From NCBI GenBank assembly GCA_944327295.1, contig CALVHF010000004.1, forward strand, positions 62,001-126,000: a stretch of 64,000 nt of DNA, given 5' to 3'. The notes below the pieces were generated by a model. That model ran no database searches and had not been told where the DNA came from. It worked only from the letters and a program-made list of their open reading frames with translations. The stretch comes from an uncultured Desulfovibrio sp. Lineage in GTDB: Bacteria; Desulfobacterota; Desulfovibrionia; Desulfovibrionales; Desulfovibrionaceae. Below, one piece after another: positions 28,416-32,790 of this stretch; position 1 is the stretch's first letter; each line of letters starts with the position of its first letter. The position numbers and the translations under genes were made by a program.

Positions 28416-31130
28416 ATGGGCTTTTTTTCCAAGATAAAGAAGATCTTCGGCTCTTCCGAGCCAAAGCCTGAACAGAAACAGGACGAAGAACAGCAGCCTG
28501 CCGGGGAAGCGGCTGCTGCATCAGGAGTCGAGACTGCCGAAGGTTCTGCCCAGGAACAGGCTCCCGGGAAGCAGGCAGAGGAACCGTCTTCTGACAAGCC
28601 CGAACAGGGGGGTGACAGGGACGTGCCTGCCAAGGAGACAGATGCAGAGCCCCAGGCTGCAGAGAAGAGCGCAAGGGCCGCCGCAGAGCCCGAGCAGACC
28701 ACTGGACAATTTGCAGATCTGGCCGCTGATCAGGGCTCCGAGTCTGGCAAGTCGTCTGACTCGACGGCAGAGGTGGACGTTGTCCTGACAGAGGTCGTGG
28801 GCAGCACGTCTGCCACCGTGTCTGCCGATCCTGAAGAAGAGTCCGGGCAGGCCCGCACAGAGACAGTCGGGACGGACAGGGCACAGACAGAACAGGCTGG
28901 TACAGAGACCGCGCAGGCTGCGGAGTCTGAGCCCGTAGTCGTCACCGAAACAGTCAGCGAGACGGTCACTGCAACTGTGACCGAGCCTGTTTCTTCCAGG
29001 GAAGAGGACAAGGTGCAGGCCGAAAGCACGGAAGGTGACACGAAGGAAGTCCCCCAGGATCCCTGGGCACTCTTTGCGGCGCCCCGTGCCCAGAAAAAAG
29101 CTGAAGAACAGCCTGCCGGCGAGCCGGAAGAACAACCTGCAGCTGTTGTGACAGAGCCTGCCGCTGAAGCTGCCCCGGAAACTGTCTCCGCAGCTCCGGT
29201 GGACGCCGAAGCTGCGAGCGAGGAAGCCGATCAGAAGAAGGCAGAGGCTGCAAGCGAGCCTGCCCCCGAACCTGTACCCGGCACTGTCACCGAACCTACC
29301 ACGGAGCAGACCTCCGAGGCAGTCATTGAACTCGTCGTCGAGACCGTCACGGAAGCAGCTCCGCAGACTGCTGCCGTGACTGCCCCGACTGATCAGGGAG
29401 AGCAGTCTGCTGACAAGGCTTTCAACGAAACGGCCGACAAGGCTCAGGCCGAGAGCAAGGAAGAAGCACAGCCTGAAGCTGTGCACGACCCCTGGGCGCT
29501 CTTTGCTACACCCCGTGCGCGGGAGACGTCTGAAGAAAAGTCGGAAGAAAGATCTGAAGACAAGCAGGAAGAAAGGCCGGAAGAAAAGCCCGCAGACAAG
29601 ACTGAAGAAGTTCCTGCAAAGAAGTCCGAAGACAGGGGCGAGGACAAGGCGGAAGAAAAGCCTGAAGCTTTGGCTGAAGCCTGTGAGGAAGCCGGAGAGC
29701 AGGGGGCTGCCGGTGCTGCCAGTACAGGCGGACAGGACAGTGCGCCTGTGACCGAGCTTGGCACCCATGCCGATAAAGCAGCCGGCAGGGAAACAAAGTC
29801 CGAGGCTGTCGAGACGACCGGTGAAGACGAGGAAGAACTGGTCATTGATCTGGGGGCTCCCCTGCCCGAGGACTGGGAAGAGGAAAAGCCCGCCGAGGAG
29901 GCTGCCACGGCTCAGGCGGCCAGTCTGTCCGATCCGATCTATCAGGAACTCACGGCGCGCCTGCGCGATGCCGAGGCCAAGCTTTCCGTCTGGCTCGACA
30001 TTGTCCTGGACGGCGTGACCGAGGCAGGCCCTGCCCTCAACGACAGGGTGCCCTTCCTGTTGCGGACCCTTGAGGCCCCGGAAAACGAGGCCGAGGAATT
30101 TGTGCAGGACTTTGCCTCCTGGCTTGAGCGCATGGAGTACCGCTCGCTCGACGAATTCCGTTCCGAACTGCAGTACCGCCTGGCTCTGGCCCTGGAACTG
30201 GAGGACGAAGAGGACGAGCGCAACCGGCTCTTCCTGAAGCTGACCGACAGCCTGGCCAAGACCAGGGCCCAGTTTGCCCGCCATTTTGAAAACCTCATTT
30301 CCAGCCACGGCGAGCTGGACGAGGACTTCTGGCAGGAGCTGGAGGAAGTCTTCATCATGTCCGACCTGGGCGTCGAGGCGGCCATGGAGCTCACAGAACG
30401 GTTGCGCAACCGGGCCAGGCAGGAGAAGGTCACGACCTCCGAGGGGGCGAGGGAACTCCTGCGCCAGGAAATCCGCGCCATCTTTACACGGCCCAGGCAC
30501 ATTGTGGGTGTCACTCCGCCGGAAGTGGTGCTCATGATAGGCGTCAACGGTGCCGGCAAGACCACGACCATTGCCAAGCTGGCCTACAGGGATCGCATGC
30601 AGGGCAAGAAGGTCATGATTGCCGCGGCAGATACCTTCCGTGCGGCAGCCATTGATCAGCTCAGAGTCTGGGCCGAGAGGGTCGGGGCGATCTTCCATGC
30701 CAAGACCCCCGGATCCGATCCCGCTTCCGTGGCTTATGAGGCCATGGATCGGGCCATGAACGAGGGGGTGGATGTGCTCTATGTGGATACGGCCGGCCGT
30801 CTGCAGACCAAGGTGAACCTCATGGACGAGCTCTCCAAGATCCGCAACGTCATTGCCCGCAAGCATCCCGGCGCCCCGCACAGGACAGTGCTTGTGCTTG
30901 ATGCGACCACAGGCCAGAACGCCCTCTCCCAGGCCAAGCTCTTCAAGGAGTCGGCCGGTGTGGATGAACTTATTCTCACCAAGCTGGACGGCACGGCCAA
31001 GGGCGGCGTGGCCATTGCCGTGGCCATGCAGCACAAGCTGCCCATAAGCTATGTGGGCCTGGGCGAAAAGGTGGAGGATCTGAGGCCCTTCAACGGCGAC
31101 GACTATGCCGATGCCCTGCTGAAGAACTAG
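28416..31130 (+). CDS. ftsY: Signal recognition particle receptor FtsY with very long acidic N-terminus
   Basis: FtsY receives SRP-ribosome complexes at the membrane and hands them to SecYEG. Residues from about 590 to 904 form the NG GTPase: a four-helix N domain, G1 [10 protein letters not shown] near 709, the [11 protein letters not shown] block, DTAGR, and [10 protein letters not shown]. The protein is 904 residues against 497 in E. coli: the A domain is about 510 residues of Glu/Ala/Thr/Pro-rich low-complexity sequence. It starts with a short amphipathic [12 protein letters not shown] membrane-targeting helix. Within the A domain a DPWALFA(A/T)PRA motif occurs twice, near residues 215 and 358. 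The ATG follows GGAGGG. No frame break is seen along it. Confidence 0.95.
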
Positions 31131-31140
31131 ACTGCGTACA

Positions 31141-31179
31141 CGGATTGCGGAGGCCCGGTCCCTCGGCCTCCGCAATCCG
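31141..31179. other. Perfect 15-bp hairpin after ftsY
   Basis: Arms at 31141-31155 and 31165-31179 pair perfectly around a nine-base loop, 11 bases after the ftsY stop. No T tract follows, so it may stabilise the ftsY 3' end or work with Rho rather than being a classical terminator. Confidence 0.6.
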
Positions 31180-31282
31180 AAGCGTGCTGCTGCGATGCCC
31201 CCGGCCATGAAGCAGCGGCGCCCTGAACACGGAGTTCCGAAGAGCTAGGGATGAGGTCCTTGCGGCTTTCGGTGTCCTTCCC
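31180..31282. other. Short spacer before the S10 promoter
   Basis: About 100 bases between the ftsY hairpin and the AT-rich tract upstream of the promoter. Nothing recognisable. Confidence 0.3.
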
Positions 31283-31332
31283 AAAAAATTTTGTAAAATT
31301 TTCTTGACAGACCATGGGGCATGGTCTATCAA
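31283..31332 (+). promoter_or_regulatory. Strong promoter with UP-like tract and dyad spacer (S10 leader)
   Basis: A consensus TTGACA (31304-31309) stands exactly 17 bases before TATCAA (31327-31332). Directly upstream is an A/T tract (31283-31303) alternating A and T runs like an UP element. The 17-base spacer itself is a perfect dyad: GACCATG, GGG, CATGGTC. Transcription would start near 31339. It is the best promoter in the window and reads toward rpsJ. The dyad suggests an operator for a dimeric regulator, which is inference. Confidence 0.8.
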
Positions 31333-31830
31333 AACCTTCGCCCCTGATTCAGGGGAATCCCTGTACGGCAGGGAAGGACGATGCAAATCGTCCTGCAGTA
31401 CCGGCCTTTCCCAAAACAGGCCGGTTTGACAAGTGCAGGCGTTGCCAAATGCCGACTTGATCGAGCCGTACCAGCCCACCTACGGATCCCACACCGCCCG
31501 GTGTGCCCGGGGCTGTAAAGGTTTTTGGGGGGACACTTACCCCCGTTTGGTAACCCTGCGGGACCATCCTCACTGGTACGTTCTGTACCATCTGGGGCGT
31601 GGAGAACGCCGGGAGCGTCACGGAATCGTGGATAGCCAGGCGCGTTACTCACGCCCACCTCTCTTGCTTTCCCCTTCTCAAGACAATTTGCGTCACTGCG
31701 ATGTGCTCCCGAAAAAGTTCGTTCCCTCTGGGTCAGGCCAGCTAGGGCCTCCTTTTGTACGGCCCGAGCCGCGAGGATCCCGCGTCTCCCCACTGACACG
31801 GGCGTTTTTTCATGGAGCAGGTATATAACA
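31333..31830 (+). promoter_or_regulatory. Structured S10-operon leader (about 490 nt)
   Basis: There is no credible ORF between the promoter and rpsJ. Four successive hairpins begin at the predicted start of transcription: 31341-31355, 31358-31374, 31375-31394 and 31400-31425, all perfect or nearly so. Later there is a GGGGG/CCCCC stem at 31528-31544 and a TGGTAC/GTACCA hairpin near 31575. A stem at 31779-31802 (one mismatch) is followed by T6 (31805-31810), 20 bases before rpsJ, and looks like an attenuator. E. coli controls this operon by L4-dependent attenuation in its 172-nt leader; whether this leader works alike is unknown. Confidence 0.6.
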
Positions 31831-32148
31831 ATGACGACAGTTAGCAGCGAATGCATTCGGATAAAGCTCAAGGCTTACGATTTTCGCATCCTGGACAAGG
31901 CTGTAGCGGAAATCGTGGACACTGCGCGGAACACCGGTGCCGGAGTGGCCGGGCCAATCCCCCTGCCTACACGATTCCACAAGTTTACGGTTCAGCGTTC
32001 TGTGCATGTGGACAAGAAGTCTCGTGAGCAGTTCGAAATGCGCGTTCATAAAAGGCTCATGGACATCCTTGAGCCCACGCAGCAAACCGTGGACGCCCTG
32101 GGCAAACTTTCCCTGCCCGCAGGCGTTGACGTAGAAATCAAGCTCTAG
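31831..32148 (+). CDS. rpsJ: 30S ribosomal protein S10
   Basis: First gene of the S10 operon; S10 sits in the 30S head and, as NusE, joins the antitermination complex. The 105-residue protein has [46 protein letters not shown] split across the middle, and the C-terminal [11 protein letters not shown] few extra residues (MTTVSSEC) precede the usual start. The ribosome site GGAGCAGG is somewhat distant from the ATG. It is 12 bases ahead of rplC. Confidence 0.97.
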
Positions 32149-32160
32149 TGTGAGGCAATC

Positions 32161-32790
32161 ATGGCTGAAAAAATCGGAATTTTGGGCCGCAAGCTTGGCA
32201 TGACCCGCATCTTTGGTGATGACGGCGCTGCTGTGCCCGTGACGGTCATTCAGGCCGGGCCTTGCCCCATCACTCAGGTGAAGACCACTGAAACTGATGG
32301 CTACAATGCCCTTCAGATCGCATATGTTGATGCAAAGGAAAAGCACGTCAGCAAGGCCATGCAGGGCCATTTTGCCAAGGCTGGCACAGGTCTGTTCCGC
32401 ACTCTGCGCGAAATCCGCCTGCAGGGCGCTCCCGAACAGCAGGCCGGTGACACGCTGACGGTTGAGCTTTTCTCCGTGGGCGAGGTTGTCAAGGTAACTG
32501 GCAAGAGCATTGGTAAGGGCTATCAGGGCCGCATGCGCCGCTGGAACTTCCGTGGCTGCAAAGACACCCACGGTGATGAAAAGGTCCATCGTAACAACGG
32601 TTCCATTGGCAATAACACCTTCCCCGGCCACGTTATCAAGGGCCGCAAGATGGCCGGTCACTGGGGCAACGAAACAGTGACCCAGCCCAGCGCTCTCATT
32701 GTGGCCGTGCGCCCCGAAGACAATGTGATTCTTGTCAAGGGTGCTGTGCCCGGACCCAAGAACGGCCTTGTGTTCGTTCGCAAGCAGTAA
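32161..32790 (+). CDS. rplC: 50S ribosomal protein L3
   Basis: L3 binds near the peptidyl-transferase centre and is one of the first proteins in 50S assembly. The 209 residues show [13 protein letters not shown] at the start, the [14 protein letters not shown] segment and the extended-loop region [27 protein letters not shown]. The spacing to rplD is 12 bases to its ATG. Confidence 0.97.

Follow-up and report, generated by a model that had tools for sequence, protein, structure and literature searches.

In gammaproteobacteria, the S10 operon lies behind a structured leader of ~170 nt, and its control in Escherichia coli, where attenuation mediated by ribosomal protein L4 takes place before rpsJ, is a textbook example of feedback from ribosome supply. 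The leader described below precedes the same operon, is likewise structured, and is proposed to attenuate before rpsJ; it differs from the gammaproteobacterial leader in being longer (~490 nt) and pseudoknotted. A role for NusA in S10 attenuation is mentioned in PMC2965389. In PMC11109978, the rpsJ motif RLC-47-1 is described as a candidate leader RNA upstream of rpsJ in three Peptostreptococcaceae genera only, and PMC7247131 mentions a Firmicutes S10 ribosomal-protein leader (r-leader) and a deltaproteobacterial L20 r-leader whose regulated gene is given as rpsT (Table 1 of that paper).

The DNA that we analyzed is a stretch of 64,000 nt from an uncultured Desulfovibrio sp., hereafter called the window. 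The S10-operon leader RNA that it shares with other Desulfovibrionaceae is apparently undescribed and is probably a new member of the ribosomal leaders. We found no report of a Desulfovibrio S10 leader in the open-access literature searched, as far as its text was accessible, and the accessible parts of PMC5701242, PMC2965389, PMC11109978, and PMC7247131 do not report one. By description, the leader is like RLC-47-1 in being a lineage-specific candidate before rpsJ. The Firmicutes r-leader is also named for S10 and belongs to a different phylum, and the Rfam searches given below matched the Desulfovibrio core to no family. The L20 r-leader is a ribosomal leader of the old Deltaproteobacteria, and its regulated gene in that table is rpsT and not rpsJ. 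Searches of Rfam 15 with positions 31100–32200 of the window and with four relatives returned no match at the gathering score, and the handful of hits with E values of up to 1 miss the core of the RNA. On the lack of a core match in these five sequences, we reject membership in a known RNA family; with respect to the gammaproteobacterial S10 leader, the lack of a match counts only if Rfam includes that leader.

The nearest matches of the window's S10 protein among named genomes are from Desulfovibrio, and the open reading frames after rpsJ look like the remainder of the S10 operon, the later ones having been named by visual inspection. Upstream of the leader lies ftsY (28416–31130). Its product is 904 aa long and is matched by the FtsY model only over approximately residues 634–902, the very long N-terminal region having an abundance of Ala, Glu, and residues like them. 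Just 3′ of ftsY is a long perfect inverted repeat (31142–31178; GGATTGCGGAGGCC...GGCCTCCGCAATCC) that is not followed by a T-run, has a single copy in the genome, and may mark where the ftsY transcript ends. The elements of the promoter upstream of rpsJ are as follows.

31283–31303, + strand: UP-like A/T-rich tract, AAAAAATTTTGTAAAATTTTC, before the −35 hexamer; most relatives are A-rich at the same place
31304–31309, + strand: −35 hexamer TTGACA, from sequence and conservation
31310–31326, + strand: 17-nt spacer, a perfect 7+3+7 dyad by exact-match check, unconserved (perfect in 2 of 67 spacers)
31327–31332, + strand: −10 hexamer TATCAA, from sequence

A first-pass annotation of this DNA had read a near-consensus promoter here, and the letters and spacing, read directly from the sequence, are as it described them. 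Conservation bears this reading out. Among 72 leaders of relatives that contain rpsJ, the set used for all promoter, spacer, and terminator counts, 67 have TTGACN-17-TANNNN at the corresponding place, compared to 10 of 1420 in a shuffled-region control, and three more have an 18-nt spacer. The hexamers, their spacing, and the A-rich upstream tract are kept across the genus; hexamers, a spacing of 16–18 nt, and conservation are together what marks a sigma-70-type promoter. A generic promoter scanner passed over the site, because its rule requires the −10 hexamer to end in T, and we consider conserved position and spacing in relatives to be better evidence for a promoter than such a scanner. By this conservation, a real promoter at this place is well supported, and the usual distance rule from the −10 hexamer would put the transcription start at ~31338–31340.

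The spacer of this promoter, GACCATGGGGCATGGTC, is an exact inverted repeat (GACCATG-GGG-CATGGTC), as the first-pass annotation had also noticed, and it was there proposed as an operator. A dimeric regulator would then be seated between the hexamers, perhaps in no species but this one and its sister, a reading that we consider highly improbable. In its favor, an intergenic Markov model gives any one 17-mer a chance of ~6.8e-5 of being a perfect 7+3+7 dyad, and the arms are unchanged in the sister genome (G030), whose spacer differs by one central base; this agreement says little, because the sister is ~98% identical over the region. A perfect dyad is thus unusual for one chosen spacer and ordinary for the whole window, which holds 12 of them, against 4–13 (mean 5.9) in 10 Markov sequences. 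The genome search that had been proposed for GACCATG-N3-CATGGTC in other promoters found the exact pattern only once in the whole genome; with ≤2 mismatches, it occurs at 10 places, compared to five for the reversed control pattern, and there is no clear family of dyad sites.

Comparison of the orthologous promoters points the same way. The dyad is perfect in two of the 67 17-nt spacers, those of the window genome and of G030, and the remaining 65 match at 0–5 of the seven arm positions, so that the spacer sequence diverges freely while the flanking hexamers stay. A dyad that is not conserved in close relatives was the very observation that the first-pass annotation had named as telling against its proposal. 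Because the dyad is neither conserved in relatives nor exactly recurrent in the genome, we reject it as an operator. Five leaders of a single clade (L112, L116, L122, L123, and L124) carry a partial dyad of different sequence, CAAG...CTTG, in the same spacer, with matches at five of the seven arm positions. These partial dyads are the best remaining hint for an operator, and we judge them to be near chance expectation, given 59 distinct spacers. The spacer palindrome looks like a lineage-specific coincidence. It has no part in the explanation that we favor and is a distraction beside the regulatory RNA that appears to be encoded downstream. The wider expectation of the first-pass annotation, that this ribosomal-protein operon is under special control, is probably right, with the evidence pointing to that leader RNA and not to a DNA operator. 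From the putative transcription start to the first gene of the operon, the leader is laid out as follows.

31339–31830, + strand: S10-operon leader, a putative 5′ UTR of ~490 nt, from sequence, DNA search, and folding (z −3.8)
31340–31355, + strand: 5′ hairpin, kept in position and variable in sequence among aligned relatives
31358–31374, + strand: near-invariant hairpin UCCCUG-nACGG-CAGGGA, from the 70-leader alignment
31375–31394, + strand: covarying hairpin AGGAC.../...GUCCU, with several pairs changed on both sides
31425–31561, + strand: core domain R1, comprising helices P1, P2, and P3, with the pseudoknot helix PK outside the model; from covariance model and alignment
31561–31656, + strand: second domain, a probable three-way junction, with a hairpin at 31574–31590 and a stem of 31595–31601 with 31650–31656
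31745–31765, + strand: GGGCC/GGCCC hairpin upstream of the terminator-like stem, from sequence
31779–31810, + strand: terminator-like hairpin with six T after it, immediately upstream of the rpsJ ribosome-binding site, from a stem scan
31831–32148, + strand: rpsJ, which encodes ribosomal protein S10 and opens the operon, from the open reading frame list and a profile match

A plain DNA search matched the leader in 75 of 198 relatives. For the alignment, we used 70 of 73 leader ranges, leaving out L032 and L034, which were taken as duplicates of other genomes, and L127; L156 had been dropped from the ranges for its lack of a matched 3′ end. In the aligned leaders, invariant blocks alternate with variable stems, and conserved segments reach on toward the ribosome-binding site. 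The consensus fold of the 70 leaders has an energy of −56.1 kcal/mol, compared to −2.5 kcal/mol (sd 2.0) for column-shuffled alignments, and the window leader by itself folds better than its shuffled versions (z −3.8). In the near-invariant hairpin, the four inner pairs are unchanged in all 70 leaders, the outer U-A pair in 68, and the last G-C pair in 69.

The second domain appears to consist of a closing GGAC/GUCC helix, a variable apical hairpin, a GCnUG/CAnGC stem that occurs in C-G, G-C, and A-U versions, and a GCAUCA/UGAUGC helix. These helices were chosen by visual inspection and counted afterward, in an alignment of 39 of 49 ranges from which the 10 most divergent-looking were left out. 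We hold this domain, probably a three-way junction, less firmly, because its automatic consensus fold is weak (−4.5, where 100 column shuffles have a mean of −0.5 and a lowest value of −4.6). An open reading frame of 131 aa (31433–31828) was considered as a coding leader and set aside, since insertions and deletions in relatives break its frame.

The core, R1, was found in 86 of the 198 relatives, specifically in 75 of 79 members of the genus, in 11 of 40 genomes from elsewhere in the family, and in none of 79 outside the family. When 297 genomes were sampled evenly across the phylum, eight had an R1 match, all of them in the genus. When 26 loci were searched with filters off, weak matches appeared in L218 (E 0.00097) and L220 (E 0.012); these matches in other genera are also upstream of rpsJ. 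Of 87 core copies, 84 precede an rpsJ gene of the same strand by 140–537 nt and so lie at the 5′ side of a ribosomal-protein operon, where an r-leader is expected. The other three sit close to the ends of contigs that lack rpsJ.

Such a distribution bears on whether the RNA belongs to the operon at all. Its size and complexity resemble those of stand-alone RNAs, and in the window, the core ends ~270 nt before rpsJ. A separate noncoding RNA, encoded before rpsJ by chance or processed from the leader and acting in trans, could have these properties, and we nevertheless regard it as unlikely. The core keeps its place before rpsJ although the gene on its other side varies (ftsY in the window, EF-G in L205), and there is one copy per rpsJ: the single genome with two copies, G066, has two rpsJ genes, each with its own leader (contigs C1 and C3). 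The conserved segments that continue toward the ribosome-binding site also argue against a separate RNA, as does the location of 6S RNA, which lies elsewhere in all four genomes tested; by the same result, we reject a misidentified 6S RNA. G066 may be a mixed assembly. In L224, which comes from another family and is without the leader RNA, EF-Tu abuts rpsJ.

Four members of the genus have no R1 copy (G010, G036, G014, and G034). In G014 and G034, rpsJ was likewise not found. In G010 (L184) and G036 (L213), rpsJ is present, the leader RNA is absent, and ftsY ends 163–176 nt before rpsJ, leaving no room for it. The leader RNA is therefore not essential, as two genus members with rpsJ lack it. 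L035, from Candidatus Desulfovibrio kirbyi, looks the same as G036.

Within the core, the alignment of 50 non-redundant sequences out of 73 (with near-identical cores removed, L156 dropped, and four ends reset by hand) yields the following helices.

31434–31451 with 31544–31560, + strand: P1, long closing helix (5′ and 3′ strands), from alignment and covariation
31426–31433 with 31456–31464, + strand: PK, pseudoknot helix (5′ and 3′ strands), from alignment and covariation
31472–31515, + strand: P2, stem CAGCCC/GGGCUG with an inner hairpin, from alignment, with a compensated change in L208
31527–31544, + strand: P3, hairpin GGGGG/CCCCC, from alignment, which is loose here (62.5% paired)
31438–31453, + strand: alternative hairpin GGCGUU-GCCA-AAUGCC, which excludes P1 (99.7% of cells paired)

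P2 and P3 sit inside P1. PK has its 5′ strand just outside P1 and its 3′ strand inside it, which makes the fold a pseudoknot, and its outer part occurs in three versions that differ by compensating changes, as judged by eye in the alignment table. The core model with the pseudoknot has 92.6% of cells paired in the 50 cores, and its covariation score was reached by none of 500 shuffles, in keeping with the conserved, covarying secondary structure by which an r-leader is recognized. Within the genus, six core pairs have changes on both sides, which is not above shuffles (mean 6.7), and the changes in P1 are mostly one-sided (e.g. G-C to G-U). A stronger test than this within-genus covariation comes from 13 sequences, 12 of them outside the model alignment. 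When the partner strands of P1 were swapped among these sequences, no permutation of 5000 paired as well as the true combination, and for PK, 28 of 5000 did; the 13 sequences are hand-chosen R1 hits, a set that leans toward P1 because R1 contains P1. L209 and L218 pair poorly in P1, which counts against the helix.

The alternative hairpin is kept in most of the distant members, with shuffled sets never as stable in 1000 tries, and is weak in L206 and L220. It and P1 are mutually exclusive, since both use the 5′ strand of P1. Conservation of both pairings suggests a two-state element, and it may also reflect a constraint on the sequence alone.

Two mutually exclusive conserved pairings, together with long invariant unpaired stretches and a pseudoknot, count in favor of a riboswitch for a small molecule or an alarmone tied to growth rate, in place of a ribosomal-protein leader. 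Riboswitches usually control several metabolically linked operons, whereas the core is found only before rpsJ, and we consider this reading improbable. We also doubt, to much the same degree, that the Desulfovibrionaceae S10 leader is a new class of two-state switch, alternating between pseudoknot plus long helix and local hairpin, and responds directly to a small molecule or growth signal. If it were, the largest ribosomal-protein operon of sulfate reducers would have its output set by a direct-sensing switch and not by an ordinary feedback leader.

For a structured, pseudoknotted leader that is confined to the head of the S10 operon, the simplest account is a ribosomal-protein leader, and the reading that we favor, with some confidence, is that the promoter drives a structured leader of ~490 nt that acts as a ribosomal-protein feedback switch on the S10 operon. 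The conservation of this leader, its structure and covariation, and its exclusive place before rpsJ are observed; that it is transcribed, what it binds, in which direction it controls, and what its terminator-like stem does are matters that we infer. The conserved promoter would fire into the leader, which would fold as a large structured RNA, in order the 5′ hairpins, the pseudoknotted core, the second junction domain, and the terminator-like hairpin, followed by the rpsJ ribosome-binding site. The core would toggle between the long helix P1 and the local hairpin that excludes it. A ribosomal protein of the operon, when in excess, would bind the folded core; by analogy with E. coli, L4 heads the candidates. 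Binding would shift the balance toward premature termination or masking of the start, and the supply of ribosomal proteins would in this way limit their own operon. Imitation of an rRNA binding site is common but not universal in r-leaders; the leader shares no 9-mer or longer word with E. coli 16S or 23S rRNA, in a word search of a kind that would miss the often only structural mimicry.

With respect to premature termination, a terminator-like stem of ≤−10 kcal/mol with a U-rich tail is present in 45 of the 72 leaders, compared to 17 of 144 controls; 27 leaders are without one, and the stem in the window is weak (−7.3 kcal/mol). A terminator-like stem near the gene would also suit a leader that loads an antitermination complex, with S10 itself, which is NusE, as the sensed factor. 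The role of S10 in antitermination noted in PMC11109978 speaks for such loading. Against it, an unsystematic look at the conserved blocks noticed no boxA-like element, and we think it quite unlikely.

As a feedback leader, the RNA offers a testable two-state pairing, and G010 and G036 are natural absences within the genus for comparison. Ribosomal leaders differ between lineages, and a large, well-conserved one is found here in Desulfovibrio, which are gut and environmental sulfate reducers.
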